The translations under genes and the position numbers were made by a program. Shown here one piece after another: positions 19,883-61,144 of a stretch of DNA of 64,000 bases (position 1 is the stretch's first letter; the number at the start of each line of letters is the position of its first letter). The stretch covers positions 44,206 through 108,205 of IMG/VR virus record IMGVR_UViG_3300044972_000601; one strand, written 5' to 3'. The DNA comes from a virus. Below the pieces are notes generated by a model. It worked only from the letters and a program-made list of their open reading frames with translations. It did not search any database and was not told where the DNA came from.

Positions 19883-21594
19883 CAAACTTCCTGCAATTCA
19901 TTCTTCGTTAACAATTTTCCAATTTCAGGCAACCATAAGTATTTCATGCTAGAGCGATTCAAAGTGTCTAATGCTTCGCTTATTTTTTCAACTAGCGGAT
20001 CTCCTGCCAAGTTAAAACTAGTATTGAACAAAATAGGTACACCTTTAATTTTATTAAACTCGCTGATCAAGTTATAATAGTGAGGATTCTGCTCTTGTGT
20101 AACTGTTTGCACACGACAAGTACCGTCTACGTGTGTAATTGCTGGAATCTTATCACGTTTGTCTGCTAGTACGTCAACAGCATACATCATACTAGGACTT
20201 TCTTTCCTACCTGCAAGGTCAAACCAGTCTAATGCGTGTTCTGCTAAACATGATCCAGCAAATGGACGGAACCATTCTCTGTTTTTAACTAGATTAACAA
20301 TGTCTTTACCGTCAGGCACAGTTGGGTCAAATAAAATACTTCTGTTACCCAGTGCTCGTGGGCCTGCTTCGCTACGTCCTTGGAACAATGTAACAATATT
20401 ACCGTCTGCAATAAGTTTAGCTACATCACTAGCAGTAGTACCTTCAACGGTAAATCCGTCAAAGTTTGCGGCTGCATATTCTCCGGATCTATCTGGACCA
20501 ATGTACAACGATGTCAATGGTGTTGGCTCGTTGTTACCTGTAATTTTCCTATAAACATACTGGCATGCACCCATAACTGTGCCGCCATCGTGACTAACTG
20601 GTTCGTGATAAAATTCAACATCTGGGAATTCTTTCAAAAATTCGTAGTTTGCAACGCAGTTTAAAACATAACCGCCGGCCATTACAATTTTCTTTTTACC
20701 TGTAATTTCGATAGTCTGTTTGATCAACGCAATTACCCGCTCTTCTGTAGATTTTTGTACAGCATAAGCTAGATCTTTTTGAAGATCGTTAATTGCAGAT
20801 TCATCCTTATGCCACGATGCATCACTTTCGTGCTCTTTTAACTCGGGATTTAAATCGCATCGAATTACATTGCCTGCTGGAAACTTAGGTTTAATCAAGT
20901 TACGATTGTTAAATTTACCTTCATGAATTTTAATACTATCATTTGGTTTACCGTAAGGTGCAATGCCCATAGTTTTGCCAGCTTCAATAGCATGGAATCC
21001 TAAGTATTGTGTTACAGCTTCGTAACTCTTTGTAATACCATGGCCGTCAGACATTTCAATATATGTATCGTTGTCGGTTAGGCTGAAACTATCTACTAAA
21101 TTAGTGCCGTAATGCACTAGATGTTTGGTAATTTCTGCTGGGTATGACAAACTCCAGATAGATTCTACTTCCCACGATTCATGTTTTAAACCTTCCATAT
21201 CAGGCAAGTCTAAACCGCTGCCGGCGCCGTCGATAACAATAGCTGCGGCATCGTCGAATCCTGAATTATAAAATGCACAAACTGCATGAGTCATGTGATG
21301 ATCATCACCTAACTTAATAGTTTCCATCTTATGCCCAGGTTGTTTCTTTCTTACATAACAGGTATATGCATCTTCGGCTGTCCAAGGAACTTGTCCAAAC
21401 GCATTTCTAGTCCCGCATAAAATTAAGAAATCAATATGATCAGTATATTTGAATGCTTCTTCCATGCCTAAGAAAGGATTGCCATCGTACTTCATTCTGC
21501 TTAATCGATCTTCTTCGATATAGTATACTAGTTTGTTATCTTCGTACAGCGCACAAGCACCGTTGTGCCCTACATTAATAGCCATTAACCACAT
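19882..21594 (-). CDS. Carbamoyltransferase, NodU/TobZ family
   Basis: 570 aa, the usual family length. It transfers a carbamoyl group from carbamoyl phosphate through carbamoyl-AMP to a hydroxyl, typically on a sugar. The N-terminal Kae1-like domain shows NVGHNGACALYEDNKLVYYI, the metal-binding DDHHMTHA (residues 98-104) and IDGAGSG (121-127). The C-terminal domain has the signature GRSEAGPRALGNRSILFDP. The key residues visible are intact. It lies between a glycosyltransferase upstream (12-nt gap) and an oxygenase downstream (1-nt overlap). That makes a carbamoylated glycan or glycosylated virion surface the most natural product. Confidence 0.93.
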   Translation of the reverse strand: MWLMAINVGHNGACALYEDNKLVYYIEEDRLSRMKYDGNPFLGMEEAFKYTDHIDFLILCGTRNAFGQVPWTAEDAYTCYVRKKQPGHKMETIKLGDDHHMTHAVCAFYNSGFDDAAAIVIDGAGSGLDLPDMEGLKHESWEVESIWSLSYPAEITKHLVHYGTNLVDSFSLTDNDTYIEMSDGHGITKSYEAVTQYLGFHAIEAGKTMGIAPYGKPNDSIKIHEGKFNNRNLIKPKFPAGNVIRCDLNPELKEHESDASWHKDESAINDLQKDLAYAVQKSTEERVIALIKQTIEITGKKKIVMAGGYVLNCVANYEFLKEFPDVEFYHEPVSHDGGTVMGACQYVYRKITGNNEPTPLTSLYIGPDRSGEYAAANFDGFTVEGTTASDVAKLIADGNIVTLFQGRSEAGPRALGNRSILFDPTVPDGKDIVNLVKNREWFRPFAGSCLAEHALDWFDLAGRKESPSMMYAVDVLADKRDKIPAITHVDGTCRVQTVTQEQNPHYYNLISEFNKIKGVPILFNTSFNLAGDPLVEKISEALDTLNRSSMKYLWLPEIGKLLTKNELQEV

Positions 21595-29500: not shown

Positions 29501-32500
29501 TTATCTTAGTAAGAAGTAGTTTAATGCTAAGGGACTACCGTCTATACCCTGTGTAAAGTTAGCTTTATTCTTTATATTTATCTGAGTTCCTGCCGTGTTA
29601 CGAATCTGAGATCCTGTAATTTCGATAGTTCCTGCTACCAGCGTATTTACGTTAACTGTGCTGTTGCCGCCGCCAATTTGGCTAGCAACATATGCCCTGA
29701 TAGCTTTCTGCGTTGGCACAATCGTATCACTGTTTGCACTGAATGTTGCATCAGTACTGAACTGACTAATACTTGTGTTTGAACTGCCCAATGTAACACT
29801 ACCTAATTGTAATGTTTGTAGGCCGCTCAAGTTAAACGCATTGGCATTCAATGTGGCAATACCTGTTGATTGCTGAACAGTGAACAAGTCGCCCACGTTA
29901 AAGTTACCGTCTTGGTCAGTACTTGTGTAGAACACACGCCCGCCGCCCGCTTCGACAGTTTCATTTGCTATGTCGGCTGCTTGAAGTGGTGTGTTTGGAT
30001 AATTGGTTGTGGCAATTGGGCCGGTACCAATACTCAAGAAGTCGTGTCCAGTTAGTCGAGTTTGACTGTATAATATACGCATTGTGATTGCTACACCATG
30101 TACTGGTGCAAGTGCAATGGTCATAACAGGACTAATTTGTAATGTAGCACTGTAGTTACCCGGTGTTCCTGTTTGACTACTAACTGTTACCAACTTGTAG
30201 TACGAACTATTGCCTGCAAATTGTATGTTACTACCCAATGTAGGAATAGCAGTCATACCACTTACATTCATGTACTGATTATTTTGGAAAATGTCAGCAT
30301 AGCCGCTACCACTGATTGTGGTAGTGGAACTGGTATAGCCAGTGCCGCGATTGGTAAATGTTGGGTTGCCCAAAACGCCTATACCAGTTCTCACTGTGTA
30401 CGTGGCCGTTGACGTGGCATTTGGGTCGCCAAGTGTGATTGTTGGAGGAGTAGTGTATCCAGAACCTGGTTCGTAGATTCTAAAACTACTGATCTGTCCG
30501 CTGGTAACAACTGCACGGGCTTCTGCTCGTGTAAAGTTAGGAATACTCAATGCACTTGTACTGCTACTTGCAATAACTGCCCATGTAGGAGCCGCACTGG
30601 TAATAGTAGTGCTGCCTGTTGAAACAGCATGACTAGTGTCAACTGTCCAAGTACTGCTTGAACCAAACTGTGTTCCAGTCAAGTTAGCAGTGATTGTTGT
30701 GCCAGCAATTACACCAACGCCATTCAACACTGCACCAGTAATAATGCCGCTGCCAGTTGGAGTACTTGTAACAGTTAATGTTGTTCCAGTGATACTACCA
30801 GTAAAGCTAGTGCTGGTATTACCAAATGTCAAAGCATTCCAAGATGCATTGCTCAGTGTGCGTGGAGTCCAGTTAATGCCATCCGGACTTGTTGCACCTG
30901 CACCTGCACCTGTTACACTGGTCCAGTTGCCGCCTACATTACTTGAAATAGTAGTAATTGGTGTTAACGTTGCACTTGTACTAACTTGTATCTGACTATT
31001 AGTCTGATTAATTGAGACAACGTAATATGTTGTGGCTGATGTTAAACCGCCAAATGCAGCACCTGCTGTGATTGCCTGTGTACCAGTAGCAGTTGTAACT
31101 GCCAAATTAGTTCCGCCAAAGCTAGCACTTACTGCTACAGTTGTTGCACTTGGAACTGCTGTGACAAAGTATGTTGTACTATTTGACAAGCCACCAAATG
31201 CTCCCGATACATCAGTTACAAAGCTCTCGCCCACTGCCATGCCAGTAGAAGAATCAACGGTAATCAAATTATTAGTACCGGTTATCAAACCTGGAGTTGT
31301 AACAGTTTGACTTGCGTTCAAAGAATAACTAGATCCAGAAATTGCAATACTACCAGTTGCACCAATGGCAGAACTCACTGTGTATGTGCCTGCACCTCCA
31401 GAGCCTGAGCCAAGAGCAGTAATATATCCAGTCAAATTATCTAATTTGATAGCATTGTTTTGATAAGAAACATATCCCAATGTGTATGTTAGGCCAGTTG
31501 GAGTACCAATAGTAGTTACCACACCAGTTGTTACGTTAGGATTAACATTGCTGGTTGTGCTCAGTGTGAATGTTGTACGACCATTTGTAGCAATCACATA
31601 ATAAGTAGTTGGATTGGCATAGCTGGTAATAGAGCCAGTGCCGCCCAGTGTGCCACTAATTGTTATAGTCATACCAACCGCAAGAGTTGTTGCATCACAA
31701 TTAAACTGTCCGCCAGTTCCAATAATATTAACATTGGCCAATACGGGCTGTGTTAATGTATAATGTTGACCTGCAAATAGTGTGCCTCCGCCCACGGTTG
31801 CTGTGGGTGCTGGACTTATGAAATAAGTTCCTGATCCACCAGTGCCTGTGCCGTTAGCAGTAACAAATGATCCTGCACTTACTACGGTTCCGCCAGCACC
31901 AGTTGCACTTGTGGCACTGTCAAATGTACAGATACTTGCTGAACAAGCTGTTACTTTGAATGTGCCGTTAAAGTTGCTGTTGGCATTGCCTGTGATTGTG
32001 ATTGCTTGTCCTGTGGCAAATGGAGCACTTGCTTGTACACTGCTGAATGTAACTGTAGCACTTAATCCGTTACCGTTAACATTATTGATTGCCAAACTTT
32101 GTGCAACGAAACCGTTTGTCCAGCTGATAACTGTACCCGGAACAACAGTGCCAGAACCCACACCCGATACGTTTAGTGTAATAGGAGTTGCTGTGATTGT
32201 GGTACTTGTAACTGTCTGACTCAAGTTAACTAACCATGTGCTTGGATTACTGGTTGCAGTACCGCTCAAACCTGCAGAAACATAAGTTCCTCCAGTAACG
32301 CCTGTGCCGCTTATCACATATCCCACAACAATGCCTGTTCCTGATGGAGCACTGGTCACAGACATAATGCCGCCTAGGCCTACATCCGTTGCACTTACTG
32401 GTGCAATGCTGGCAGTAAATGTCACTGCTGTACCGGCTGTGATGCCGCCAAAGAATGAACTTGGTGCTGAAGCAGCAATAGTATAACTGGCTCCTGTGAT

Positions 32501-35500
32501 ATTAGGACCACTCACATATGCACCAGCCGCTGGAGTTCCAACACTAGTACCTTGCAAACTTAATACGCCGTTCTTAACTTCTGCAAAGTTGTTAGTAACA
32601 ACTGGCCCGCTGATAGCCTGTCCAACTGCCACTGTACCTGTTATAGTACCACCAACAGTTAATGTTACACCGCTTACGCTGGAACTTGTACTTGTAAAAC
32701 TGTTACTTCCAGTAATATACAATGGCTTGCTGAATACTGTTCCGCCAGATACATATGCAGTAGTTGTTGTGCCTGCAAATGTCACGCTGGTAGCAGTTGG
32801 TTGTCCAGTAACAGTGTAACTGCCATTGTAAGCAATAGGGGCTACACCTTGTAAATCAATAGTTTGACCTGATACAAACGGTACTGGTTTAACATAAGTG
32901 TATGTTAAGCCAGTTGGAGTTCCTGTAGTTGTAACAACACCAACTGTTGGTACTACGTAAACGCTAGTTGCCGCTGTGCCTGCGGTAAATGTCAATGCTG
33001 TTCCACCTGGAACAGAACTGATTGTGATACTGGTACTTGCTACGACACTCAACACATAGTAAGGAGTATTAGCAACCAAACCAATTGTTGCCAAGTTTGC
33101 ACCTGTAAAGTAAATTGGGATTCCAGCTTGTATATTTGTTGTACTAGCCATTGCCAATGCGGATGTGCCGTTGCCGGTAAATGTTTGGCCTGCTGCGGCT
33201 GTTCCGCCTGACAACTGGAATCCTGTACTGTTATTGTTAGTCTTGTTAATAAAATAAGTTGTTGGATTTGCATAACCAGTAATAGAGCCAGTGCCGCCCA
33301 ATGTACCACTAACAGTTACTAGCTGTCCAACTTGCAATGCAGATGCTGTTGCTGTGCAAGTAAATTGCCCGGCTGTTCCTGCAATAACAACTCCAGTTAA
33401 TGCTTCTGTTTGTTGAGCATAAGTGACTGTTACTGTTGATCCAGAACCAGTGACACCTGTTACTGCAATGTTTTGTGCAGTTTGTACATTATTACCAGTA
33501 ACAACCATACCTGTAGCAACAGTTCCTTGATTTGCTGACCCAGGTGTTAACACATTGCCAGCACCAGTAATACCTATTGTGCCAGAACTGTTTAAAGATG
33601 CAACTGCTCTTGTAGTAGCTGTTGCGTTAGTAGTTTGACTAGCGACTGTTGGTGTCCACGCTTGCCCTGTTGCCATACCAGCTGTACTGCTTAAAGTAAT
33701 TTGATTACTACCAGTGTAGGCTGCTGTAACTGTGGGTGTCAAATAAGCTGCTGTAGCAAGGAACGATCCTTGACCGTAGGCAACATTTTTCCAAGCATAA
33801 CTGAATGGTAAAACTGTATTAGGAGTTGTCCAAGTAATACCATCTGTTGAGTATGCTGTTGCTGTGCCGCCCTGGGCAACTGCAACAAATCGGCCATTGC
33901 CCCATGCAATACTTGTCCAGTATGCTGTTTGTGGTAATGCTCCAGCTGTCCAAGCTGCTCCGTCTACTGAATATGCAGTGGCTTGGCTTAACACAGTGCC
34001 GCCTGTAATAGCAACAAATCGTTCTGGGCCAGTGCCATATGCAACAGCTATGTAGTTAGCGTTGGCAACTGAGCCACCGTTGTTCCAAGATGTGCCGTTA
34101 GCACTGTAAGCTGTTACTGTTCCGTTGCCAACTGCAACAAACCGGCTATTACCATAAGCAACGCTGGTCCATGTTCCAGATTGTAATCCAGTCATTGCTG
34201 TCCAGCTTGTGCCATTGGTGCTAGAATATGCAACTGTAGTTGCTGCTGTTCCTGCAACTGTTACAAAATAAGTTGTGGCACTTATTGCACCACTTGCAAC
34301 TCCAACATATGCACTAGCAGAACTCAAGCCAGTCATTGCACTCCAGTTTGCACCGTCTACGCTGTATGCACTGTTGCCATCACTGGAAGAAACTGCCACA
34401 AAACGGCCGCTTGCATAAGTGGTAGAACTCCAATTTGTTGCAGTTCCTGGCATTGTGCGACTGGTAGTGGCAAAACTTGGAGCAGTAAATGTTACCCTTG
34501 GTTCAATGCTGTATGTTGTTGTGCTGTCCATTGTTGCACTAATTGCTGTTCCAACAACCACATGATCCCAACCTGCTGCATTTACAATCATTGTACTGGC
34601 AGTTACATCGGTCAAACCAGTGCTGATTGCAGCACCGCCGCTTGTTGCACTGACTGCAAACTGTGTTGCACTAGTGATGGCCTGTACATAGTAAACAGTG
34701 GCCACAGCAAAGCCGCCGATTGCAGTGCCTGTAAAGACGATTGGTTGATTAACATACAATGTTAAAGTGCTAGCAACTGTGACCAATGCACCAGTTGCTG
34801 TAACTGCACTGGCTGTCAATGCTGTGAAACTTTCTTTAGCAATGTATGCTTGCTTGCCTCCAGCGTTATAAAATGCAATATAACCAAATTGACCAACACC
34901 TAGGCCGCTTGTGATTAGTAAACGCATGCCAAGATAGGATGCACTAACCGCAGTATCTGATCCAGCAATAATAATAGTTGTAGTTGTACCGCTTTGTGCC
35001 GTGTTTGTTGCTGATACAAATCCTGCACCAGTAGTTAACATTCTGTTTTCAAATACAGCATTATCACGAACTTCATCACCTACTGCTGTGGCATTGATGC
35101 CGTTTGCACTGTTAAAGGTAAAAGTTGTTCCTGAATTAGGATATGCATTACCAGCATTACTATATTCTAATCTATAGATACTTGCACCGCTGGTGAATGT
35201 ATTTCCAACCACTGCTTGAACAGCACGGTTATTAACAGTAGCAGTGATAGGAGTTTCTGAACTGTTAACTCCTTCAGATACGCTGCCAAATTTACCGTAA
35301 GAGTTGTTGCCGTTGGTGGCACGAATCTTGCCACCGTGTTCTGCAAGATAACCAATGTGTGCGTAGTATGTAAACACCGAAACTAATTCAGCACGGCCTT
35401 GGTTAGTAATCCAAGCACCGATACCATTGTCAATAACTTGTGTAAAGTCGTTGGCAACAATAGATTGATTTCCGCCGTTGTGTAATGCACCATCTACTTT

Positions 35501-37753
35501 TAGTCCAATTGCACAAGATCCAAATGTAGTGACGTTTTGAATATACGGACTACGGCGTGAAATCCATACGCTAGCATCATCTGGGCCTGCACCTGGATCT
35601 AAACTTGCATATGCACCTGCTGTGGGACGCTGTGTTCCATAACTGTTTGCTGCACCTAGTGTGCCGCTTAATCCTTGCAATGTACAATTACGCAGGCCAG
35701 AGCCGTTTCTCATGTAGAACATATTGCTGGTTGTGTATCCGCTGGAGGGTTGAATTACAGTTGATCGCAATTCGTCGCCAATAATTGCACAGTTTTCAGG
35801 AATACTAATAGGCAGTACTTCGGAATAAACACCAGACTTAACATAAATTGAACTAGTGTATCCTGTCGTTGGCAACGGAATACCAGCTGTGTCTACTGCG
35901 GTTAATGCGTTAATAACAATATCAAACAATGCTCCTGCCGCAGTTGTTGCACCAGCTTCTGATGTGTAAGACAAGTTAATCACTTGATTAACTGCTGGAG
36001 TATAACTGGTTAATGTTTGGTAGTTAGTACCTGGAGCAGTATTTGTTAATGCATTAGTAACAATATTAATTTTTAATCTTTGTAGCAATGCAATAATAAA
36101 CGGCATTGCTGATGTTGTGGCTGCATTAACAAATGTAGTGGAAGTAGCAAAATACATCATTGTTGCATTTACAGTGTTAGTATTACTTCCACTACGTAAA
36201 TCTTGAGTGATAGCATCTAAAATAATTCTTGAATCACGCAATGTTTTTACACCGTCATATACTGAGCCCGGTGCAAACGGTGCAATACTAGTTGTTTTAG
36301 CATATTCGCCATACTGATACATTTCACGAACGGCCCAGTTAACGTTTTCGCCAAACAAATAGATAGCATTGGGAAATAATGTTCCCGCTGCAACTTGAGA
36401 GCAAGCGTAGGCAATAGTTGCCCATGGCTTGTCAAGTGTTTTACCTTGATCAGTTGCTGCGGTGTCTGTACCACCAACAGCAACATAATAAACATTGTTA
36501 ATATTACCAAATGTGTTCCAGTATAAGTTTGTTCCCTGTACTGTCAACACTTGACCGTCGGTACCGATAGGCAATCTTGCTGGGCCTGCGCCGCTGTAAT
36601 ATAGCGTGTCGCCTTGTGTTGTTAACACCGCAGTTTCCGATCCAGCAGCCAACAAGTTCCAATAAGTACCAACTAAATCAACAGTTGGTTTGTTTGTTGC
36701 AGTGGCAGCAGTGTGGCCCAACACGCAAACATATGTGTTTACACCATCCTTGATTGAATCCCCAAGTTTATATGCAGTGCCATTTGTCCATGCACCTAAC
36801 CACTGATATCCTGGGTTTAACAATTCCCAGTATGTGCCGTTTGGTGGTTCGTTGTTGGTGTGATCTAGTTTTGATAGATATGTATAACCATTTAATCTCA
36901 CAACATCGCCTACTTTGTAAGCAGTTGCTCCAGACCAGTTGCCAATAAAGTTGAATCCTGTGCTTAACACAGTCCAATACAATGTTGCTGTACTAGGAGT
37001 TTGATTTGTATGATTTTGCAGAGCCACATAACTATAGCCGCCGTATGTAACAACATCGCCTTTTTGGTAAGTTGTTACACCACTCCATGTGCTTTCAAAT
37101 TGCAAACCTTCTACAAATATTGCCCATTTGGTATCGTCAAATGTGCCAGCAGATGTGTGGTATGTTGTGCAAATCCATAAATCAGCACCGTACTTGACAA
37201 CATCATTAAGTTTGTAACGTGTTGTGCCTGACCAGTCTGTTTTATAGTCAAAACTTCTGTTGACTAAATCCCAAGATGATGTATCACCTTCTAATCCTAT
37301 TGAAGTAGATTGGCTAGTATGTGCGGCATTACAAATGTAAACCGATGCTCCGTACTTGACAACATCTCCAACTTTGTATGTTGTAGTTTGTGACCAAGAT
37401 CCAGTCCAATTAAATGCACTGGCAAACAGTGTCCAGTTGCTTTGATTTGTTTCTAATGTAGTACTGCTGGTATGACCTGTGTTACAAATATAAACGCGGC
37501 CGCCATATTGCACAAGGTCATTAATATTGTAATATGTAGGAGTGGTCCAAGTGCCTCTCCATGTTTGGCCGTCGGCGGTAATGTTCCACTTTGATGCTAA
37601 ATCAGTATAAAAATCTGCCGAGCTTGTGTGCCCTGTGGTACAAATATATACTTTACCACTAACTCTAACTACGTCGTCTTTTACGTATGTGGTAGTTCCC
37701 GCCCAGACACCTTTCCAGACAAATCTAATCCTACCTAATTTAAACTCTGCCAT
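29501..37753 (-). CDS. Giant tail fibre / adhesin, 2750 aa
   Basis: Largest gene of the window. Residues 1-370 hold seven units of about 50 residues of the form WxGxW..TxYxxGDVVxYGGxxYxC..HT....W.L, like chitin/carbohydrate-binding modules (CBM5/12 style). Residues 430-900 form a pectate-lyase-type beta-helix (IYVKSGVYSEVLPISIPENC, STVIQPSSGYTTSNMFYMRN). Then comes a Ser/Thr/Gly region of about 1300 residues with propeller-like blades (RFVAVGNGTVTAYSANGTSW) and Ig-like repeats, absent from the 1224-aa paralogue. The C-terminal 260 residues (GGGRVFYTSTDQDGNFNVGD to the end) match that paralogue again. A late promoter and GGAG precede the ATG. Confidence 0.8.
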   Translation of the reverse strand: MAEFKLGRIRFVWKGVWAGTTTYVKDDVVRVSGKVYICTTGHTSSADFYTDLASKWNITADGQTWRGTWTTPTYYNINDLVQYGGRVYICNTGHTSSTTLETNQSNWTLFASAFNWTGSWSQTTTYKVGDVVKYGASVYICNAAHTSQSTSIGLEGDTSSWDLVNRSFDYKTDWSGTTRYKLNDVVKYGADLWICTTYHTSAGTFDDTKWAIFVEGLQFESTWSGVTTYQKGDVVTYGGYSYVALQNHTNQTPSTATLYWTVLSTGFNFIGNWSGATAYKVGDVVRLNGYTYLSKLDHTNNEPPNGTYWELLNPGYQWLGAWTNGTAYKLGDSIKDGVNTYVCVLGHTAATATNKPTVDLVGTYWNLLAAGSETAVLTTQGDTLYYSGAGPARLPIGTDGQVLTVQGTNLYWNTFGNINNVYYVAVGGTDTAATDQGKTLDKPWATIAYACSQVAAGTLFPNAIYLFGENVNWAVREMYQYGEYAKTTSIAPFAPGSVYDGVKTLRDSRIILDAITQDLRSGSNTNTVNATMMYFATSTTFVNAATTSAMPFIIALLQRLKINIVTNALTNTAPGTNYQTLTSYTPAVNQVINLSYTSEAGATTAAGALFDIVINALTAVDTAGIPLPTTGYTSSIYVKSGVYSEVLPISIPENCAIIGDELRSTVIQPSSGYTTSNMFYMRNGSGLRNCTLQGLSGTLGAANSYGTQRPTAGAYASLDPGAGPDDASVWISRRSPYIQNVTTFGSCAIGLKVDGALHNGGNQSIVANDFTQVIDNGIGAWITNQGRAELVSVFTYYAHIGYLAEHGGKIRATNGNNSYGKFGSVSEGVNSSETPITATVNNRAVQAVVGNTFTSGASIYRLEYSNAGNAYPNSGTTFTFNSANGINATAVGDEVRDNAVFENRMLTTGAGFVSATNTAQSGTTTTIIIAGSDTAVSASYLGMRLLITSGLGVGQFGYIAFYNAGGKQAYIAKESFTALTASAVTATGALVTVASTLTLYVNQPIVFTGTAIGGFAVATVYYVQAITSATQFAVSATSGGAAISTGLTDVTASTMIVNAAGWDHVVVGTAISATMDSTTTYSIEPRVTFTAPSFATTSRTMPGTATNWSSTTYASGRFVAVSSSDGNSAYSVDGANWSAMTGLSSASAYVGVASGAISATTYFVTVAGTAATTVAYSSTNGTSWTAMTGLQSGTWTSVAYGNSRFVAVGNGTVTAYSANGTSWNNGGSVANANYIAVAYGTGPERFVAITGGTVLSQATAYSVDGAAWTAGALPQTAYWTSIAWGNGRFVAVAQGGTATAYSTDGITWTTPNTVLPFSYAWKNVAYGQGSFLATAAYLTPTVTAAYTGSNQITLSSTAGMATGQAWTPTVASQTTNATATTRAVASLNSSGTIGITGAGNVLTPGSANQGTVATGMVVTGNNVQTAQNIAVTGVTGSGSTVTVTYAQQTEALTGVVIAGTAGQFTCTATASALQVGQLVTVSGTLGGTGSITGYANPTTYFINKTNNNSTGFQLSGGTAAAGQTFTGNGTSALAMASTTNIQAGIPIYFTGANLATIGLVANTPYYVLSVVASTSITISSVPGGTALTFTAGTAATSVYVVPTVGVVTTTGTPTGLTYTYVKPVPFVSGQTIDLQGVAPIAYNGSYTVTGQPTATSVTFAGTTTTAYVSGGTVFSKPLYITGSNSFTSTSSSVSGVTLTVGGTITGTVAVGQAISGPVVTNNFAEVKNGVLSLQGTSVGTPAAGAYVSGPNITGASYTIAASAPSSFFGGITAGTAVTFTASIAPVSATDVGLGGIMSVTSAPSGTGIVVGYVISGTGVTGGTYVSAGLSGTATSNPSTWLVNLSQTVTSTTITATPITLNVSGVGSGTVVPGTVISWTNGFVAQSLAINNVNGNGLSATVTFSSVQASAPFATGQAITITGNANSNFNGTFKVTACSASICTFDSATSATGAGGTVVSAGSFVTANGTGTGGSGTYFISPAPTATVGGGTLFAGQHYTLTQPVLANVNIIGTGGQFNCDATTLAVGMTITISGTLGGTGSITSYANPTTYYVIATNGRTTFTLSTTSNVNPNVTTGVVTTIGTPTGLTYTLGYVSYQNNAIKLDNLTGYITALGSGSGGAGTYTVSSAIGATGSIAISGSSYSLNASQTVTTPGLITGTNNLITVDSSTGMAVGESFVTDVSGAFGGLSNSTTYFVTAVPSATTVAVSASFGGTNLAVTTATGTQAITAGAAFGGLTSATTYYVVSINQTNSQIQVSTSATLTPITTISSNVGGNWTSVTGAGAGATSPDGINWTPRTLSNASWNALTFGNTSTSFTGSITGTTLTVTSTPTGSGIITGAVLNGVGVIAGTTITANLTGTQFGSSSTWTVDTSHAVSTGSTTITSAAPTWAVIASSSTSALSIPNFTRAEARAVVTSGQISSFRIYEPGSGYTTPPTITLGDPNATSTATYTVRTGIGVLGNPTFTNRGTGYTSSTTTISGSGYADIFQNNQYMNVSGMTAIPTLGSNIQFAGNSSYYKLVTVSSQTGTPGNYSATLQISPVMTIALAPVHGVAITMRILYSQTRLTGHDFLSIGTGPIATTNYPNTPLQAADIANETVEAGGGRVFYTSTDQDGNFNVGDLFTVQQSTGIATLNANAFNLSGLQTLQLGSVTLGSSNTSISQFSTDATFSANSDTIVPTQKAIRAYVASQIGGGNSTVNVNTLVAGTIEITGSQIRNTAGTQINIKNKANFTQGIDGSPLALNYFLLR

Positions 37754-37797: not shown

Positions 37798-40700
37798 TTA
37801 ACGTGCTCCGCTTGATATAAATGAAGCTGTTGCCAACATATTACCACTTACTCCACCTGTAAAATTAACTTTACTTTTAAAATTAATTGCAGTACCAAGA
37901 GTGTTTGTTATTTGATTTGATGTTGCAATTTTAATTTGGCCCGCTGTTGCTTCGTTAACATTTACGTTTGCACCGCCTCCACCAATTCTACTTGCAATAT
38001 ATGATTTAATTGCTCGCTGTGTTACTAATACATTGTCGCTGTTTGCAGGCAATGTTGCATCTGTTGAGATTTCAGTAACTGTTGCACTAGTTCCACCAAG
38101 CACAATGCCGCCCAGTGTTAATTGAGAAAGCCCGTTAAGTTGGAAGAAGCTGGCATTTAATGTTGCTGTTCCGCTGGCTTGTTCAACTTTAAACAAGTTA
38201 CCAACACGGAAGTTACCGTCTTGATCTGTTGCTGTGTAGAACACTCGGCCACCACCACTTTCTACTGCCAGGTTTTGCGGTTTAACTTCGCTTACGTCGA
38301 TATTTGGATAATTTGTCTCAGCGGTATTTCCTGTACCAATTTCTAAGAAATCGTGTCCAGTTAATCGTGTTTGGCTATAGTTAGTTGTAATAGTAACTGT
38401 TTGACCTTGTGGTGGTGCTTCGGCTAACAATATTTCAGGATAAACGGTAAATCTAGCAGAGTATGGACCAGTTCCTGTTATATGTTCGGCTGCTACCAAT
38501 CTAAAATTAGTGCTTGTACTAAGAAAGTTTACGTTTGCTCCAGGGCCAGGAACCGATGTAAGGCCACTAACATAAAGGTATGAACCGTATTGGTACGCAT
38601 CTTGGTAGCCAGTGCCGCCGGTAATAATTGCACTTGATGTCAAATATCCAGTTCCTCTATTACTAAAAGTGGGCGTAGCCAATACTCCGTTTCCGATCCT
38701 AATTTGATACTCTACTCCAGAACCATTTGGATCACCGATAACTATTGTTGGTGCAGATGCGTATCCGGAGCCAGGTTCAAATACTCTAAATTTACTAATC
38801 CGGCCAGATGTTACCACGGCTCTTGCTTGTGCTCTAGTTCCAGACCCTGGAGCACTAAATGTGATTCTAGGTTCAATACTGTACTGGCTTGTGGTATCAA
38901 GATCTACCACTGCATTAACACTTTGCATAGCATCCCAACCAGCTGTTCCGTTACTTTCTTTTAATATAGTGGCTAATTTAGTTGTTGCACTGTATGAACT
39001 AATATATCCGTATTGTCCTGCACCTCTTCCTGAAATAATAACAATACGCATTCCTAGATAGTTACTTTGCACATTTGAATCTCCCGCTGAAAGATAAATT
39101 GTTCCAGAAGATCCGCTACCTGCCTGTGCATAATTAATAACACTTAAATAGCCACCACCGCCGTAACTGCCAGACGAAGTTATGTCTGTTAATCTAATTT
39201 CGTATACTCCACCATCTCTTACTACAGCAGTGCTAGATGCGGCACTTAATCCTGAACCAGTAAATGAAAATGTTGTTGAACTGTCATAACTAACTCCTGC
39301 ATTGTCATATTCAAATCCTAAAATCTTAGAACCGTCTGTGAATACAAAACCAACAACTGCATGCGACCCACCGTTGTTAATTGTTCCTAGGATAGGAGTC
39401 TCCGTTGCCAGCGTGCCTTCTGCTACTGACCCAAAATCTCCGTAGCTATTGTTGCCGTTAGTGGCACGAATTTTGCCGCCGTTTTCCGCCAGATATCCAA
39501 TGTGTGCATAATACGTGAATACTGAAACTAATTCAGCACGGCCACCGTTAGTAATCCACATACCAATGCCATCACTAATTACCTGTGTGAAGTCGTTGGC
39601 CACAATAGATTTGTTGCCCCCACCATGTAACGCACCGTCTACCTTCATGCCAATACAGCCAGTTCCAAAAGTTGTAACGTTCTGCACGTAAGGACTACGA
39701 TATATAATTTGTGCTGCTGAATCTGCAATGCCGGTTGGATCCAAACTTACATACGCACCGGCTGTGGGGCGTTGTGTTCCAAAACTATTTGCTGTACCTA
39801 GTGTACCTCTCAATCCCTGAAGTGTCATATTTTTTAGAACAGTACCATCCCGCATATAAAACATATTACTAGTTGTGTAGCCAGTCGTTGGTTGAATAAC
39901 GGTTCCTCTTAACTCATCTCCAACTAGTGCAACATTGGATTGTATAGTGATAGGCAGCTCTTCTGAATATACGCCAGATTTAATGTATATAGTTGCTGTT
40001 CCAGTTACATTATTACAAGCATATTTGACAGTTCTAAACGGTTTGTCTAATGAAGTACCGTAACCTGGTGCATCAGTTCCTGCCAGTGAAACATAATAAA
40101 CTTTTGTTCTAACGCCCCATAGTCCCCATACTGGACTATTACCAGATACTTTTAATACTTGTCCGTCAGTGCCGGCTGCTAATCTAGTTTTGGCACCTGC
40201 ATTATAATAAATCATATCAGCAGGGCTGGTCATTACGTTGGTTGTTGTACCTTGTACTAGAATAGTCCAGTAAGTACCAGTGGTGCCGCCGCCAATATCA
40301 GTATCTGGTCTACTGCCAGCTGTTGCTCCGTGGGCCAAGGTGCATTGAAATGTGCTAGGACCGTAGCCAACAATATCGCCTAATTTGTATTGAGTTGCAG
40401 TTGGGATTAGGTCTGTTGTTAGCTCGAACCACGGGCCTCGCCATTTTGAACCTTGGTTAACTACTTTCCAATAACCTACATTTGGAGGTTCTTGAAGTGT
40501 ATTATCTGCTGTAGCAACATACAAGTAGCCGCCTACTCTCACAACGTCACCTACTTTGTATTGAATAGCAACTGGAGATGGGCCGCTGGTAGTGGCTACA
40601 TAATCTCCTACAAAATTATAGTTTGCTACTACAATAGACCAATAACTCAAATTGTTAAACGGTGTTTGATTTTCATTATTTTGCTCTGCACGATATGCAT

Positions 40701-41472
40701 ATCCACCATAAGATACAACATCGCCGCGTTGATACGGTGTTATATTATCCCATGTTGCAGATTCAATTTGTAAACCATCTAAATACACTGACCAATTGGC
40801 TAGATTAGCGGCAAATGCTGTTGCGGTATGACCTGCTGTGGCAATCCATAACGATCCACCATATTTGACTACATCGTTAACTTTGTAACGAATGGCAGTG
40901 GTCCAAGTACCCTTAAAATCATTTTGTTGATATACAACTTGCCAGACTCCAATGTCTGCTTCTAAACCGCTGGCATACGATGCCACACTATTGTGAGGAG
41001 CTGTACATCTGTACACAGTGGCACCGTATTTTACAAGGTCGTTAATTTTATATCGTGTGCTTGTTGTCCAATCTTGTGTCCAGTAATCTGATTTGGCCAC
41101 TGTTTCCCATCTGGAAATATTAGCCTCCAATCCCGAAATGGTGTCAGGGCCTGCAACACCCGAAGTTGTTATGCCGCTGCTGGTATGCGATAACAAGCAT
41201 CTGTAAACAATGCCGTTGTAACGAACCAAGTCACCTGGATTGTACAATGTGCTAGTAGCCCAAGTACTTCTCCAAGCATATCCGTCTAACATCAGTACCC
41301 ATGTTGCAGCTGCCAATGCAGGTGCAAATGTAGAGCCGCTGGTATGTGTAACAAAACAAATGAATGTTTTGCCGCCGTACGCTACTACATCGTCTTTGAC
41401 ATATTCTGTGGCAGCAGCCCAGTTACCTTTCCAGGTATATCTAATTCTTGCTATTTTAAAATCTGTAGTCAT
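37798..41472 (-). CDS. Tail fibre / adhesin paralogue, 1224 aa
   Basis: It has the same architecture as the giant fibre without the large insertion: seven WxxxW..TxYxxGDVVxYGGxxY units (residues 1-380), a pectate-lyase-type beta-helix (IYIKSGVYSEELPITIQSNV to IGYLAENGGKIRATNGNNSY), then TTSQYSIEPRITFSAPGSGT joined directly to RAQARAVVTSGRISKFRVFE, and the shared C-terminal block (GGGRVFYTATDQDGNFRVGN, TDATLPANSDNVLVTQRAIK). It probably represents the ancestral form. Co-directional with the giant gene, 45 nt upstream of it. Confidence 0.78.
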   Translation of the reverse strand: MTTDFKIARIRYTWKGNWAAATEYVKDDVVAYGGKTFICFVTHTSGSTFAPALAAATWVLMLDGYAWRSTWATSTLYNPGDLVRYNGIVYRCLLSHTSSGITTSGVAGPDTISGLEANISRWETVAKSDYWTQDWTTSTRYKINDLVKYGATVYRCTAPHNSVASYASGLEADIGVWQVVYQQNDFKGTWTTAIRYKVNDVVKYGGSLWIATAGHTATAFAANLANWSVYLDGLQIESATWDNITPYQRGDVVSYGGYAYRAEQNNENQTPFNNLSYWSIVVANYNFVGDYVATTSGPSPVAIQYKVGDVVRVGGYLYVATADNTLQEPPNVGYWKVVNQGSKWRGPWFELTTDLIPTATQYKLGDIVGYGPSTFQCTLAHGATAGSRPDTDIGGGTTGTYWTILVQGTTTNVMTSPADMIYYNAGAKTRLAAGTDGQVLKVSGNSPVWGLWGVRTKVYYVSLAGTDAPGYGTSLDKPFRTVKYACNNVTGTATIYIKSGVYSEELPITIQSNVALVGDELRGTVIQPTTGYTTSNMFYMRDGTVLKNMTLQGLRGTLGTANSFGTQRPTAGAYVSLDPTGIADSAAQIIYRSPYVQNVTTFGTGCIGMKVDGALHGGGNKSIVANDFTQVISDGIGMWITNGGRAELVSVFTYYAHIGYLAENGGKIRATNGNNSYGDFGSVAEGTLATETPILGTINNGGSHAVVGFVFTDGSKILGFEYDNAGVSYDSSTTFSFTGSGLSAASSTAVVRDGGVYEIRLTDITSSGSYGGGGYLSVINYAQAGSGSSGTIYLSAGDSNVQSNYLGMRIVIISGRGAGQYGYISSYSATTKLATILKESNGTAGWDAMQSVNAVVDLDTTSQYSIEPRITFSAPGSGTRAQARAVVTSGRISKFRVFEPGSGYASAPTIVIGDPNGSGVEYQIRIGNGVLATPTFSNRGTGYLTSSAIITGGTGYQDAYQYGSYLYVSGLTSVPGPGANVNFLSTSTNFRLVAAEHITGTGPYSARFTVYPEILLAEAPPQGQTVTITTNYSQTRLTGHDFLEIGTGNTAETNYPNIDVSEVKPQNLAVESGGGRVFYTATDQDGNFRVGNLFKVEQASGTATLNASFFQLNGLSQLTLGGIVLGGTSATVTEISTDATLPANSDNVLVTQRAIKSYIASRIGGGGANVNVNEATAGQIKIATSNQITNTLGTAINFKSKVNFTGGVSGNMLATASFISSGAR

Positions 41473-54520: not shown

Positions 54521-57500
54521 TTAAGCAAATCTGTTGCCAGACAAACCACGTGTGGCTTTGATTTGAGCTCCAGCAAGGTCAACGCCGCTGGCACTATGTT
54601 CAACTAATTGCCGTATACTACTATTTAACTGAATTAACTGATCGTACAAATCTTTTGCAGTGGCTTCAGAATCATTGAGATTGATTGATTGTGGTTTTTC
54701 ATCTGGTTCTTCTGTTGCATACTCGTCCGGTGTTGGTTCAAACCCTTTCATTACATCAGTAATTGGTACTGATGTAGCTGATTTTTCAACAATATTTCCA
54801 CGTTGTATTCCAGATTCAAATGTAGTTTCTACACTAGTGCCAGCACCGATACGATTGGACAAATCGGATGTCATGGATTTCATACGTGCTTCCAATGCAA
54901 TAGCCTCTGGATTAACTTTTAATTCTTTAAGTACATCTCCTCGTTTTGTATCTGGACCCATGGATTCACTAATTTTATTACTGATTGCCACACGGTCTTT
55001 ATTATACTGGCTTGTCAACGCTTCTAATTGTGTCTGTGCAGACTTTGCATCTTCATTTTGTACAGATTTGCGTGTTGTAGAACCTCCTCCAGTTACTGAA
55101 CTTATAGTTGTTGATACGCTGTCAAATATCTTTTTAATGCCAACATCTGAAGTAAAGGCAGGAGCTGTTGCAAGTGCTGTTTTTTCTGCTTTCTTTTGAG
55201 CATCCGATTGACTCATTCCTTCGGACATGTATTTTTGTATTTCAGAAATGCTTACTGGTTTTGTTGTGGCAGGAGTTGGCATGTTGCTGGGTAACTTGCC
55301 TGATAAATTTCCAAGATCTATTCCAAATTTTGCCAATTGTTTATCAATTATTGAATCTGTTTTATTAGTACTAGTATCTGGAGTTAATGGTTTTGGGGTT
55401 GTTAATGTTACTGGTGGAATAGCTGATACTTTGACATCTGCTACTTTTACTTGTGGTATGCCAGGTACTTTGACATCTGCTACTTTTACTTGTGGTATGC
55501 CAGGTACTTTGACATCTGCTACTTTTACTTGTGGTATGCCAGGTACTTTGACATCTGCTACTTTTACTTGTGGAATAGCTGATACTTTGACATCTGCTAC
55601 TGCCACATTTACTGGTGGTATGCCAGGTACTTTGACATCTGCTACTTTTACTTGTGGAATATCTGGCACTGCTACGTTTATTGGCGGAACAGCTGGTACC
55701 GTTAATGATGTCTTGGATTCTGATTTTCCAGGTTCAGGGGATGTAACACCGTTAATTTCCTTTAAGGCTTTCAATGTGCCGGTGTATATAATATCTGAAG
55801 TTATCGATTCGGGCTTGCTTGCAGAACTAATATTGGTATTAACTGAATCAAACATCTTGGTAATATCAATGCCACCAGATTGGCCAGCACTTTTAGTTCC
55901 AGTCATGTTGGACAACATAGCACTGGCAGTATCACTTGCTGACATCATGCCCACTCCAGATATAAGATTTTTCATCTGTTCTGGAGTTAATACTGTTTCG
56001 CCTTTATGTAGCTTGGCAACTACATCGTTCATTTCAGCTGAGAATCCTGTCTCGCCCACTGTGCCAGTGCCGCGAGTCTCAACAGGTATTGCTTGTGGTG
56101 TTCCAGTAGGACTAATCTGCATTGTTGGGGCGGCAGGGGCATTGTTAGACGGAGTAGTAGGAGTTACCGTAACATTCGGAGATGTTATACTTACATTTGG
56201 CGTAGTTAATTTTAAATCTCCACTTGGAGTCATACCTGGACCACGGACATCTGTAGATGGACCATTGGGATTAAGTAATTTAACAATTTCATCAATGGGT
56301 TTTTGTATGTTTGCTTCTTTTTCTTTTACTGATTCGCTGTTTGGGCCGACTGGTAGTGTTAATACTTTTTTGATTCGGTCAATAACTTCAGCATTTTTCC
56401 CCAGTTGTTCATTTAATTTGGCCAGTGCTCCGGTTGCTGCCGCGGCATTTTTAGAATATGCTTCTGTTAATTCAGAAATAGTTTGAAATACTTTTGCACC
56501 GTCGGCAGTTTTTGGTGGATTTGCACCACTAAATTGTTGTTGTTGTCCCCGTGCGGCTGCACCGCCGGCATTTTCCTGTGCATTTTTTGCAGCCTGTTCT
56601 GGAGTAAATCCTCCCAACTGTCTATTTTTTTGTTCTATTCTAGCAGCTGGCCTGCCTTCCTCAATGGCTTTTTCCAATACGCTTCGATTAGTTCCTTCTT
56701 TCATGCTCTGGGCCAATCTATTTGCTTCTGGAGATTGCTGTCTAGCACGTATTTCTGCCTGAACTCTTCGAAGATTGTCTTCCGCGGCAATACGTTGTGG
56801 ATCGTCTACCTTAAGATTTTTAGTCCGTTGAATATCTTTGACTGCTGACGTAAGTTGGCCGCCCATGCCCATGGTACCAACACTCAGCATTGCTCTATCT
56901 TCTTTTGACAGTCTAGCACCTGAACTTAGTTTAGCAACTAACTTCTCCATCGATTCGCCTGACGGTGTACTGATAGTTTGAGCAGTTTTCATTGCTCTAC
57001 GTGCAGCATCATCTCCTAATGCAGCTTGCCGTATCTGAGATTCATTATTCTCATTCATAGCAATTGAATTTTCTATCAACTTGTCTCTGTTAATGCCGTA
57101 AGCAGATGATATTTGATTTATTAGTGTTGCTTGTTTAGCCATTTCTTTGACTAAGTTGTCTCTACCTTCCTGAGTATCTAATGCTTTATCTTGGCCTTGT
57201 GCTGCCATCATTGCTAGTCTTGGTACATCGGCAGCAGTTATAATATTTTTTTCAATAAGATTTCTAATAGTCTTATCTTTTCGTAACTCTTCTGAATAAT
57301 CGAGAAATTTCTGCGTGGCATCATTTGCACTATATCCTAGCCCTGCCAAACTTCCTCTAAAATTTCCAGCTTCATTTGTTACGCCTTTCAGCATGGCAGC
57401 ATTGTCTTCATAACCAGCTGCTTGAGCTCGAGCACGTTGGCGGACCGGATCGCCTTCGCCAATACCTACGTTAGTATTCTTTTGTGCTTCTTGCCTTAAT

Positions 57501-57841
57501 GAATCGATATGCCTAACAAAATTTCCAACACCTTTGCCAAATATATCAGCTGCATCTTGAAATGCTCTACTAGGAGCTTCAGAACTTCTGTAACCCAGTA
57601 TAGCAGCAGGTATTTGTTTTACTGCATCTGTGTTAATACCCACAGCTTTGGCCATTTCTTCAAGTTTAGTACTAAGATCCTTGAACGATTTTTCGAGATC
57701 TGCAAAACTACCAACAAACGCAGGGCCACCTTTAAGTGATGCACCTTTTGTTTTACCGTCTGGATCTTGCCCGCTGGAATTACCCGTTGGCCGCAAGATA
57801 TCGATCAGGTCTTGTAAGAGTTCTTCTGTAGATTTTGCCAT
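54521..57841 (-). CDS. Tape-measure-like / tail hub protein, 1106 aa
   Basis: The N-terminal 480 residues are Ala/Lys/Glu-rich helix (AKSTEELLQDLIDILRPTGN, DLEKSFKDLSTKLEEMAKAV, SAYGINRDKLIENSIAMNEN). Near residue 610, DVVAKLHKGETVLTPEQMKN is a motif often seen in tail tape-measure proteins. Residues 720-820 contain about seven tandem 13-residue units (KVADVKVPGIPQV type). The C-terminus is again helical. T4's tape measure is gp29 (590 aa), and I see no direct match to it. It heads the portal operon, with a divergent late promoter pair toward gp26. Tape measure is the best guess, not a certainty. Confidence 0.5.
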   Translation of the reverse strand: MAKSTEELLQDLIDILRPTGNSSGQDPDGKTKGASLKGGPAFVGSFADLEKSFKDLSTKLEEMAKAVGINTDAVKQIPAAILGYRSSEAPSRAFQDAADIFGKGVGNFVRHIDSLRQEAQKNTNVGIGEGDPVRQRARAQAAGYEDNAAMLKGVTNEAGNFRGSLAGLGYSANDATQKFLDYSEELRKDKTIRNLIEKNIITAADVPRLAMMAAQGQDKALDTQEGRDNLVKEMAKQATLINQISSAYGINRDKLIENSIAMNENNESQIRQAALGDDAARRAMKTAQTISTPSGESMEKLVAKLSSGARLSKEDRAMLSVGTMGMGGQLTSAVKDIQRTKNLKVDDPQRIAAEDNLRRVQAEIRARQQSPEANRLAQSMKEGTNRSVLEKAIEEGRPAARIEQKNRQLGGFTPEQAAKNAQENAGGAAARGQQQQFSGANPPKTADGAKVFQTISELTEAYSKNAAAATGALAKLNEQLGKNAEVIDRIKKVLTLPVGPNSESVKEKEANIQKPIDEIVKLLNPNGPSTDVRGPGMTPSGDLKLTTPNVSITSPNVTVTPTTPSNNAPAAPTMQISPTGTPQAIPVETRGTGTVGETGFSAEMNDVVAKLHKGETVLTPEQMKNLISGVGMMSASDTASAMLSNMTGTKSAGQSGGIDITKMFDSVNTNISSASKPESITSDIIYTGTLKALKEINGVTSPEPGKSESKTSLTVPAVPPINVAVPDIPQVKVADVKVPGIPPVNVAVADVKVSAIPQVKVADVKVPGIPQVKVADVKVPGIPQVKVADVKVPGIPQVKVADVKVSAIPPVTLTTPKPLTPDTSTNKTDSIIDKQLAKFGIDLGNLSGKLPSNMPTPATTKPVSISEIQKYMSEGMSQSDAQKKAEKTALATAPAFTSDVGIKKIFDSVSTTISSVTGGGSTTRKSVQNEDAKSAQTQLEALTSQYNKDRVAISNKISESMGPDTKRGDVLKELKVNPEAIALEARMKSMTSDLSNRIGAGTSVETTFESGIQRGNIVEKSATSVPITDVMKGFEPTPDEYATEEPDEKPQSINLNDSEATAKDLYDQLIQLNSSIRQLVEHSASGVDLAGAQIKATRGLSGNRFA
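55420..55690. repeat. Tandem 39-bp coding repeats (13-residue units)
   Basis: The unit GGTACTTTGACATCTGCTAC continues with TTTTACTTGTGGTATGCCA (39 bp) and recurs about seven times, some copies with a variant end (GTGGAATAGCTGATA). It encodes tandem KVADVKVPGIPQ units on the minus strand. It is in frame inside the 1106-aa gene, so it is protein repeat and not CRISPR. Confidence 0.85.
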
Positions 57842-57865: not shown

Positions 57866-57873
57866 TATAAATA
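57866..57873 (+). promoter_or_regulatory. Late promoter of gp26
   Basis: Exact TATAAATA on the plus strand, 29 nt before the ATG at 57903, with GGAG at 57893. It overlaps the leader of the divergent minus-strand gene. Confidence 0.78.
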
Positions 57874-57891: not shown

Positions 57892-57902
57892 TGGAGTTAA
57901 TA

Positions 57903-58730
57903 ATGGTACAAAATCCCTTACAGCAGTATTTTAGACAGCCAAAAATTTACATATCTCTTCCCAGTAACGGTGTATACAACTCCGTGGGTACTGTGGAAGG
58001 AGACTTAACCAACATGCCAATTTTTGGCATGACAGGTATGGATGAGATTATATTAAAAACTCCGGATGCCTTGATCAGCGGAGAAAGTGCTGTGAAAGTA
58101 ATTGAAAGTTGTTGCCCAAGCATCAAAGATGCTTGGGGATTGTCAGCACTTGATACTAATTTGTTATATGCAGCCATAAAAATTGCAACATACGGAAATA
58201 AAATTTCAGTTACACAGACTTGTCCGGTATGCAGTACTGAAAACGATTATGATTTGGATTTAAATGTAGTGGTGGAACATTATGCAAATTGTAAGTATGA
58301 TAATAAAATTACAATTGGCGAATTAGTTGTTAAAACGCAACCGTTAACATATCGAATGGCAACGGATCTCAGCATCAGAACATTTAAACTACAGCAACGT
58401 CTTGCACAAATTCAGCGATTAGAGTCTGAAGATGAACAAAATGAATTATTTAAAGGCTTGTTTGTTGAGTTGCGTAATGCACAAAACGAATTATATCTTG
58501 CCAGTGTTGAAAGTGTAGAAGCAAATAACACAGTTGTTGTTGAACGTGAGTTCATAGCTGAATGGTTGCATAACTGCGACAAGGAAATTTTTGATTTGCT
58601 CAAGGAACACATTGATAAGAATAGAAATGCATGGAATTTTCCAACATACCCGGTAAAATGTACAAATTGTGAAACTGAATCAAATGTTTATATTGAACTT
58701 GATCAAACAAATTTTTTCGACAACGCCTAA
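57903..58730 (+). CDS. 26: Baseplate hub subunit gp26-like (short product of a frameshift gene)
   Basis: 275 aa from the ATG at 57903 (GGAG 6 nt upstream); T4 gp26 is 208. N-terminus QQYFRQPKIYISLPSNGVYN, then VIESCCPSIKDAWGLSALDT then NLLYAAIKIATYGN. A split zinc ribbon is present: Cys107/Cys110 (TCPVCSTENDYDLDL) and Cys253/Cys256 (VKCTNCETESNVYIEL). This is the Pfam T4_baseplate type, which to my knowledge covers gp26 and gp51. Its last codons TTT TTC GAC AAC GCC lie on a slippery site that leads into a second frame. Late promoter upstream. Assembly factor or hub part of the baseplate. Confidence 0.8.
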   Translation: MVQNPLQQYFRQPKIYISLPSNGVYNSVGTVEGDLTNMPIFGMTGMDEIILKTPDALISGESAVKVIESCCPSIKDAWGLSALDTNLLYAAIKIATYGNKISVTQTCPVCSTENDYDLDLNVVVEHYANCKYDNKITIGELVVKTQPLTYRMATDLSIRTFKLQQRLAQIQRLESEDEQNELFKGLFVELRNAQNELYLASVESVEANNTVVVEREFIAEWLHNCDKEIFDLLKEHIDKNRNAWNFPTYPVKCTNCETESNVYIELDQTNFFDNA

Positions 58731-58759
58731 TCAGTTCTTCCTCGGACGAAATTCAGGCG
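58712..58759 (+). promoter_or_regulatory. Programmed minus-1 ribosomal frameshift signal
   Basis: Slippery heptamer T TTT TTC (58712-58718) in the gp26 frame (codons Phe271, Phe272). Five spacer bases (GACAA) follow, then a stem CGCCT (58724-58728) paired with AGGCG (58755-58759), with a weaker inner TTC/GAA helix. Slip by one base enters the open frame that ends at 58951. The gp26 stop is at 58728-58730. Confidence 0.72.
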
Positions 58760-58951
58760 GATTTAAACAGACTGGATCAAGAGACTAAACAATTTAAAGA
58801 AGAATTGTTTAGGATTTGTTGGTACATGCGTGGAGGAGTTACAGTAAACGATTTACTGTATCTCTACAGCTACGAAGATAGGGAAGCTATCTACGTTATC
58901 ATAAAAGAAAATATAAAAGCAACCAAAGAAACTCAAATGCCGTTACTGTGA
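58718..58951 (+). CDS. gp51-like tail fused to gp26 by minus-1 frameshift
   Basis: The frame is open from just after a TGA at 58700-58702 to the TGA at 58949-58951. There is no ATG or GTG before codon 58826 and only a TTG at 58805, although the sequence is plainly protein-like from the shift point: SSSSDEIQADLNRLDQETKQ then FKEELFRICWYMRGGVTVND then LLYLYSYEDREAIYVIIKEN and IKATKETQMPLL. It therefore needs the frameshift, giving a fusion of 349 aa (272 + 77). The WYMRGGxT...SYEDRE part resembles the small gp51/hub-assembly proteins of marine T4-like phages and the T-part of tail assembly chaperones, by recollection. The 3' end overlaps the next minus-strand gene by 9 nt. Confidence 0.7.
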   Translation, partial: RQRLISSSSDEIQADLNRLDQETKQFKEELFRICWYMRGGVTVNDLLYLYSYEDREAIYVIIKENIKATKETQMPLL

Positions 58952-60709: not shown

Positions 60710-61144
60710 CTAGATTTGTTGAGCCTTGAGTATATGCGAGCCATGTACACGAACACTAATCTGCCCGTTATAATAGTCTTTTGATTCTAATACTTTGTGA
60801 TTGAATTGTTCTCTGGCCTCTATATAGGAGCATTCTGATTTACTTTTACAATAAAACAGTATCTCTCTACTGAAGTTTTCCTTGCCTAATTTTAATACAT
60901 CTGCGTGTAGTTCTAGATTTGAGCCATAATATTCTTGCCAGTCGCTGTCGACTTTGCTTCGAATTTTCTTTTTTTTCTTAGTGCCATTTTTTAACTTGAC
61001 TACTTTGTAAGTAGTTTTTGCAAATTTAGCTAGTTTTTTGCCTATGTATTTTCTTCCAGAGATGTTATTTGTTATCAAATACACAAACCCTACACAATCT
61101 TCGGGTAGAGTTTCTAGTAATATATTCTGATAGGTCCATGACAT
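60710..61144 (-). CDS. GIY-YIG endonuclease
   Basis: 144 aa. GIY-YIG core: VGFVYLITNNISGRKYIGKK (VYL 21-23, YIG 33-35), then SDWQEYYGSN, NFSREILFYCKSKSECSYIE then AREQFNHKVL with a candidate catalytic Glu (109 or 112), and DYYNGQI. A basic loop (KLKNGTKKKKKIRSK) sits between strand and helix. Proteins of this size in T4-like phages are Seg-type homing or DNA-processing nucleases. It directly follows the gp47-gp46 operon on the same strand (3-nt gap), so it may have become part of the recombination unit. Confidence 0.82.
   Translation of the reverse strand: MSWTYQNILLETLPEDCVGFVYLITNNISGRKYIGKKLAKFAKTTYKVVKLKNGTKKKKKIRSKVDSDWQEYYGSNLELHADVLKLGKENFSREILFYCKSKSECSYIEAREQFNHKVLESKDYYNGQISVRVHGSHILKAQQI

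Follow-up and report, generated by a model that had tools for sequence, protein, structure and literature searches.

A conserved slippery heptamer and a startless gp51-type tail point to two probable chaperone products from one gp26-like gene in T4-related phages

Introduction

In phage lambda, gene G gives rise to a short product and, by −1 frameshifting, to an extended product, GT, which has the same N-terminus. The contractile-tail phage P2 likewise obtains its E and E+E′ chaperone from a −1 shift, an arrangement that resembles the gp26-like gene described here, and the P2 operon sits between the tube and tape measure genes. According to a 2016 review, G-T frameshifting occurs widely among long-tailed phages, with T4 as the exception (PMC5009743). 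Unlike the locus studied here, T4 itself has two separate genes, gp26 and gp51, and no slip site. A 2010 review counts both among the hub assembly chaperones and describes gp51 as essential and of unknown function (PMC3004832). The gp51 of cyanophages and vibriophages lacks the first ~200 residues (Sullivan et al. 2010, PMC3037559).

Tail assembly chaperone genes of T4-like phages were identified by Vladimirov, Gautam and Davidson (2022, Virology 566:9-15), as cited in PMC10885494 and PMC12846349. In the account given by PMC10885494, some T4-like phages pair a short gene with a long, fused one; PMC12846349 mentions poly-T slip signals as known in T4-like TAC-N genes. On our reading of these citing papers, the genes meant are gp26 and gp51. 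As far as the citing papers describe them, the present locus is like them in its PF12322/phrog_150 domain with a putative gp51-type tail, its predicted short and long forms and its poly-T slip site. Vandenendeviridae and Andersonviridae (PMC12846349) also share with it a contractile tail, a poly-T −1 slip at the 3′ end of TAC-N and an unannotated −1 tail, but they are another phage group and their slip motif is GTTTTT. To the extent that the citing papers report it, the general idea of T4-like chaperones as the G/GT counterpart is already published and is not new here.

The DNA analysed, called the window, is a stretch of 64,000 nucleotides from a 108-kb virus record, whose genes include those for T4-like portal, protease and major head proteins and an SbcC-like protein. 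An earlier note, made from these letters alone, had proposed that a gp26-like gene and a gp51-like tail are joined in it by −1 frameshifting. Here, this proposal is compared with related loci.

Results

The gp26-like gene occupies positions 57903–58730 on the plus strand and encodes 275 residues followed by TAA, which would be the short, TAC-N-like product. It carries the domain of the T4-type gp26/gp51 family, matching PF12322, the T4 gp26 family, with E=3.9e-12 and phrog_150 with E=7.3e-15. The AlphaFold model of the protein has a pLDDT of 87 and its fold matches viral gp26-type proteins with E values down to 4.5e-22. Read from the sequence, a GGAG ribosome-binding site lies at 57893–57896, 6 nt before the ATG at 57903. 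A T4-late-promoter-like −10 box, TATAAATA, is found at 57866–57873 (plus strand), 30 nt before the ATG. Such boxes are as common as chance in the window (6 observed, 5.6 expected), so that only the position of this one is suggestive.

The protein has two CxxC pairs, at residues 107/110 and 253/256, which are invariant across 37 relatives and suggest, by sequence, bound zinc. These pairs set gp26 apart from lambda G, and gp26 is also larger than lambda gpG. Further differences from the lambda system are the slip site, TTTTTTC in the window, and the gene order, which is not kept here. The gp26-like gene is the lone plus-strand gene among minus-strand neighbours and adjoins a 1106-aa gene and the portal gene; in this window it is not flanked by recognised genes for the tail tube and the tape measure.

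The 1106-aa ORF (54521–57841, minus strand) is divergent from the gp26-like gene, adjoins the portal gene and contains a 39-bp tandem repeat at 55408–55665, which encodes KVADVKVPGIPQ-type units. At the same place, RaK2 has a protein annotated as similar to tape measure. The 1106-aa protein was rejected as a tape measure, having no family match and no BLAST match to the RaK2, PA5oct, Phosso and HTVC008M candidates. Close to the gp26-like gene there is a SegE-type GIY-YIG homing endonuclease (60710–61144, minus strand; PF19835, E=7e-32). Elsewhere in the window, large minus-strand ORFs at 37798–41472 and 29501–37753 hold six and four CBM_5_12 carbohydrate-binding modules, and a Nol-like carbamoyltransferase is encoded at 19882–21594 (minus strand; phrog_1601, E=9e-156).

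The gp26-like gene ends in the codons AAT TTT TTC GAC AAC GCC TAA. The heptamer T TTT TTC, at 58712–58718 on the plus strand, is in the 0-frame phase, as the earlier note had it, and is followed by what reads as a 5-nt spacer, GACAA (58719–58723). The −1 frame is open from 5′ of the heptamer through to the TGA at 58949–58951, and the gp51-type tail, at 58712–58951 on the plus strand, consists of the slip-site FF and 77 new residues. A slip at the heptamer would yield 272 + 77 = 349 residues, and the frame coordinates thus return the short 275-aa and long 349-aa products with a common N-terminus that had been proposed. Among the ~19,500 codons of the window there are 78 in-phase X XXY YYZ heptamers, and the only in-phase TTTTTTN close to the stop of its own gene is this one. 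Tail divergence is biased to the third codon position (0.363/0.212/0.552), and the AlphaFold model of the tail consists of four helices with a pLDDT of 85.

The earlier note had suggested aligning the gp26 3′ ends of related phages, and this comparison bore out the conservation of the site. In a first round, 65 IMG/VR relatives were fetched and 64 were read (L055 ends before the 3′ end of the gene); at 29–100% identity, all 64 have the heptamer in place and the −1 frame open. The survey was then widened to T4-superfamily reference genomes and to cyanophage and SAR11-phage contigs. Of 163 related loci, a set that leaves ViI and RM378 aside, 162 have T TTT TTY at this position; in L195, the one locus without it, the 0-frame stops prematurely. 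Among representatives at 80% protein identity, the heptamer is kept in 68/68 (64 TTTTTTC, 4 TTTTTTT); its carriers are cyanophages, a SAR11 phage, KVP40, alphaproteobacterial phages and RaK2-like jumbo phages. The site is thus a conserved X XXY YYZ heptamer in the 0-frame phase, as expected of programmed −1 frameshifting.

Errors often break the frame within homopolymer-like runs, and the split could in principle reflect a pseudogene or a sequencing or assembly error in one longer gene. More than 160 loci, each assembled separately, and reference genomes share the offset and the heptamer, leaving this reading virtually no chance. A sequencing error, which the earlier note had named as what might overturn its proposal, is ruled out by the relatives with the same heptamer.

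Codon choice at the site is also constrained. The residue ahead of the two Phe varies (N, S, D, T, H, A or R), yet its codon always ends in T, and the first Phe codon is TTT throughout. With a background use of T-ending codons of 27–76% for these amino acids, the naive product is ~1e-15 for the preceding codon, and it is ~1e-9 for the Phe codon; because the sequences share ancestry, both are to be taken as orders of magnitude only. As a control, T4-type phages with two separate genes have no heptamer at the homologous gp26 position, which reads TTC TTT, TTT ATT or similar.

The start of the tail bears on the alternative to frameshifting in which the tail, gp51, is a small gene in its own right, with its own start or translated by reinitiation. 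GenBank annotates the tail in this way in cyanophages, KVP40 and HTVC008M; in about half of the cyanophage representatives there is, 5 codons past the slip, an ATG that annotators used. Yet about half of the cyanophages have no ATG until codon 11–21, protein conservation of the tail extends right to the slip, and the cyanophage GGAGG is ~25 nt from the ATG as against 8–11 nt from the heptamer. In the window, counting codons from the slip, the tail has its first TTG at about codon 31 and its first ATG, the M of WYMRGG, at about codon 38; hence no start lies ahead of the conserved part of the tail, in agreement with the earlier claim that it has no usable start of its own. In window-clade representatives the −1 frame runs 72–79 codons from the slip, and the ATG comes mostly at codon 31–38 at the earliest, beyond much of the conserved tail. 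Since no ATG occurs before codon 31 in 28/35 of these representatives (the first being at codon 31 or later), an independent start is highly improbable, even with the case of Salmonella phage ViI. In ViI (locus L085, ~2290–2470) there is a −1 frame tail whose apparent coding similarity extends to the join, and the junction, GAA ATT TTC ATT TAA, has no slippery heptamer, which would suit a separate gp51.

Frameshifting at the heptamer is further indicated by what lies 3′ of it. Compared with shuffles, the 60 nt 3′ of the heptamer have a mean folding z of −2.6 (n=68), as against −0.18 for the control. A sliding fold scan peaks exactly at the 3′ edge of the heptamer in two separate clades. The window/jumbo clade reaches a mean z of −3.11 there and the cyanophage clade one of −2.34; elsewhere values lie mostly from 0 to −0.8. 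The stem sequences differ between these clades, and in both the stem-loop directly 3′ of the heptamer is conserved with compensatory changes. Alignment A1, which comprises 24 close relatives, shows a 10-bp stem with pairing in 97.5% of cells and changes on both sides in 12 cells, a result that 0/500 shuffles reached. Its place in the window is 58725–58734 with 58763–58772 (plus strand), where this putatively ancestral, frameshift-stimulating stem is degenerate. It is intact in the close relatives, apart from one mismatch in L033, and broken in the window itself.

In place of this stem, the window lineage has a local stem-loop, CGCCTAAT / ATT.CAGGCG, at 58724–58759 on the plus strand, which uses the same 5′ arm as the ancestral stem and a new 3′ arm. 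This is the CGCCT/AGGCG stem of the earlier note. Its arms are present, CGCCT at 58724–58728 and AGGCG at 58755–58759, but it is not the conserved structure. Its folding energy, including a second hairpin, is −13.3 kcal/mol, with a z of about −1, no better than shuffled sequence, and an 81%-identical relative (L001) keeps only GCCT/AGGC. As a conserved stimulator it was rejected on this z and because the conserved pairing is the other, 10-bp stem. A stimulatory structure 5–9 nt downstream is thus found in the family, and this window has only a weaker substitute. Upstream, cyanophages have a Shine-Dalgarno-like match of 4–5 nt located 8–11 nt before the heptamer in 89% of representatives, against a background of 29%. 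The same element was rejected for the window clade, where matches of at least 4 nt occur in 14%, against 22% in the background.

The site is built around a T run, and transcription slippage on T6 could also yield mRNAs in both frames. In Rhodothermus phage RM378 (locus L092, ~2170–2390), a gp51-like tail is in the +1 frame after TCC TTT TTT TGG; reaching it would take slippage on T7 or a frameshift by +1 or −2, and slippage could serve equally well. Against slippage more generally, the run is short, with T6 followed by C in 64/68, and its 0-frame phase is fixed. The conserved hairpin lies 3′ of the run and is untranscribed while the polymerase is on the run, which makes transcription slippage very unlikely. 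Because the downstream stem-loop is conserved with compensatory changes, ribosomal frameshifting is favoured over both transcription slippage and reinitiation.

Both T4 proteins, gp26 (208 aa) and gp51 (249 aa), match PF12322 and phrog_150, and gp51 alone extends into phrog_634, via its extra C-terminus. By sequence, T4 gp26 and gp51 are paralogues, with gp51 corresponding to the long form fused in frame. Cyanophage tails match the C-termini of T4 gp51 (E=1.8e-10), and the window-clade tail finds its match (E=1.2e-7) in RaK2/CBB tails; the comparison of RaK2/CBB tails with cyanophage tails is suggestive (0/60 column shuffles). Direct profile comparison of the window-clade tail with T4 gp51 was not significant, and the window tail, which occupies the position of the gp51 C-terminal extension, had no direct match to phrog_634. 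Judged from these comparisons, the window tail would be linked to T4 gp51 only through the RaK2/CBB and cyanophage intermediates. In the tree, T4-type gp26 and gp51 are sisters with KVP40 outside, with modest support (82/71 and 84/80), as expected if duplication replaced the frameshift.

Discussion

The slip signal of the gp26-like gene is very probably real. The conserved heptamer, the T-ending codon before it, the covarying stem-loop and the startless tail together uphold the −1 frameshift proposed by the earlier note. We put the probability of the whole explanation, one gene with two chaperone products through a −1 slip on U UUU UUC, at about 0.87. In this mechanism, most ribosomes would stop at the end of the gp26-like frame and release the 275-aa form, and a fraction would slip by −1 on U UUU UUC, with both Phe-tRNAs re-pairing, and append the 77-residue gp51-type tail to make the 349-aa form. 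The stem-loop just 3′ of the heptamer would stimulate the slip in most relatives. It may also be aided, in phages such as the cyanophages, Cr30 and KVP40, by an internal Shine-Dalgarno-like GGAG(G) 8–12 nt upstream. The signal and its conservation are seen directly in the sequences; slipping in vivo and its rate, and the chaperone action of both forms, are what we infer.

Descent from the T4 gp26/gp51 family makes tail assembly chaperones the most likely role of the two forms, which would most likely be TAC-N and TAC-NC, acting on the tape measure and the tail tube. The sequence arrangement in the window is that of lambda G/GT, and the counterpart relation proposed earlier is supported by the short and long paralogues of T4 and by the gene order of HTVC008M: tail tube, gp26, gp51 tail, small gene, tape measure. 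Frameshifting could also be real and its products structural hub proteins instead of chaperones. Older genetic work placed T4 gp26 in the hub (PMC3004832), and its database label is 'baseplate hub'. The comparison with GT-type chaperone structures that had been suggested brought no help to the chaperone reading: the predicted gp26-like fold matches no solved chaperone, with no PDB match at E < 0.6 (HK97 gp13 and YqbN chaperones included). The tail model had no PDB fold match, and a sequence search of solved structures gave no meaningful match. We nevertheless regard a structural role as unlikely, as gp51 is needed for assembly yet absent from the particle, the same review lists both proteins as hub assembly chaperones (PMC3004832), and an assignment as tail assembly chaperones has been published, as reported in PMC10885494 and PMC12846349.

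With two chaperone products as the preferred reading, an evolutionary account can be put forward, which we hold at somewhat better than even odds. Stem-loop-stimulated −1 frameshifting on U UUU UUY would be the ancestral and near-universal control of the two-chaperone ratio in the T4 superfamily. The T4 branch would have lost the frameshift by duplication after the KVP40 split, RM378 would have switched to +1, ViI would have lost the heptamer and the window lineage would have replaced the stem.

The earlier note knew of no annotation of this arrangement in T4-like phages. This holds for joins, as no database record examined joins gp26 and the tail, but not for the chaperone assignment, which dates from 2022 according to PMC10885494 and PMC12846349. 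GenBank starts 'gp51' 3′ of the slip site in P-SSM2, S-PM2, KVP40 and HTVC008M, and the tail is not annotated in the RaK2 and PA5oct records; in the annotated genomes examined, the tail was thus missed or started late. Relative to the 2022 work as the citing papers present it, this study adds the covarying stem-loop, the jumbo/uncultivated clade and two exceptions, RM378 and ViI. On the reading preferred here, many marine and jumbo contractile-tailed phages would join the frameshift scheme known from lambda. This scheme would explain why cyanophage 'gp51' has only a fifth of the T4 length, and it would provide an evolutionary account of T4 gp26 and gp51, in which duplication replaced the frameshift.
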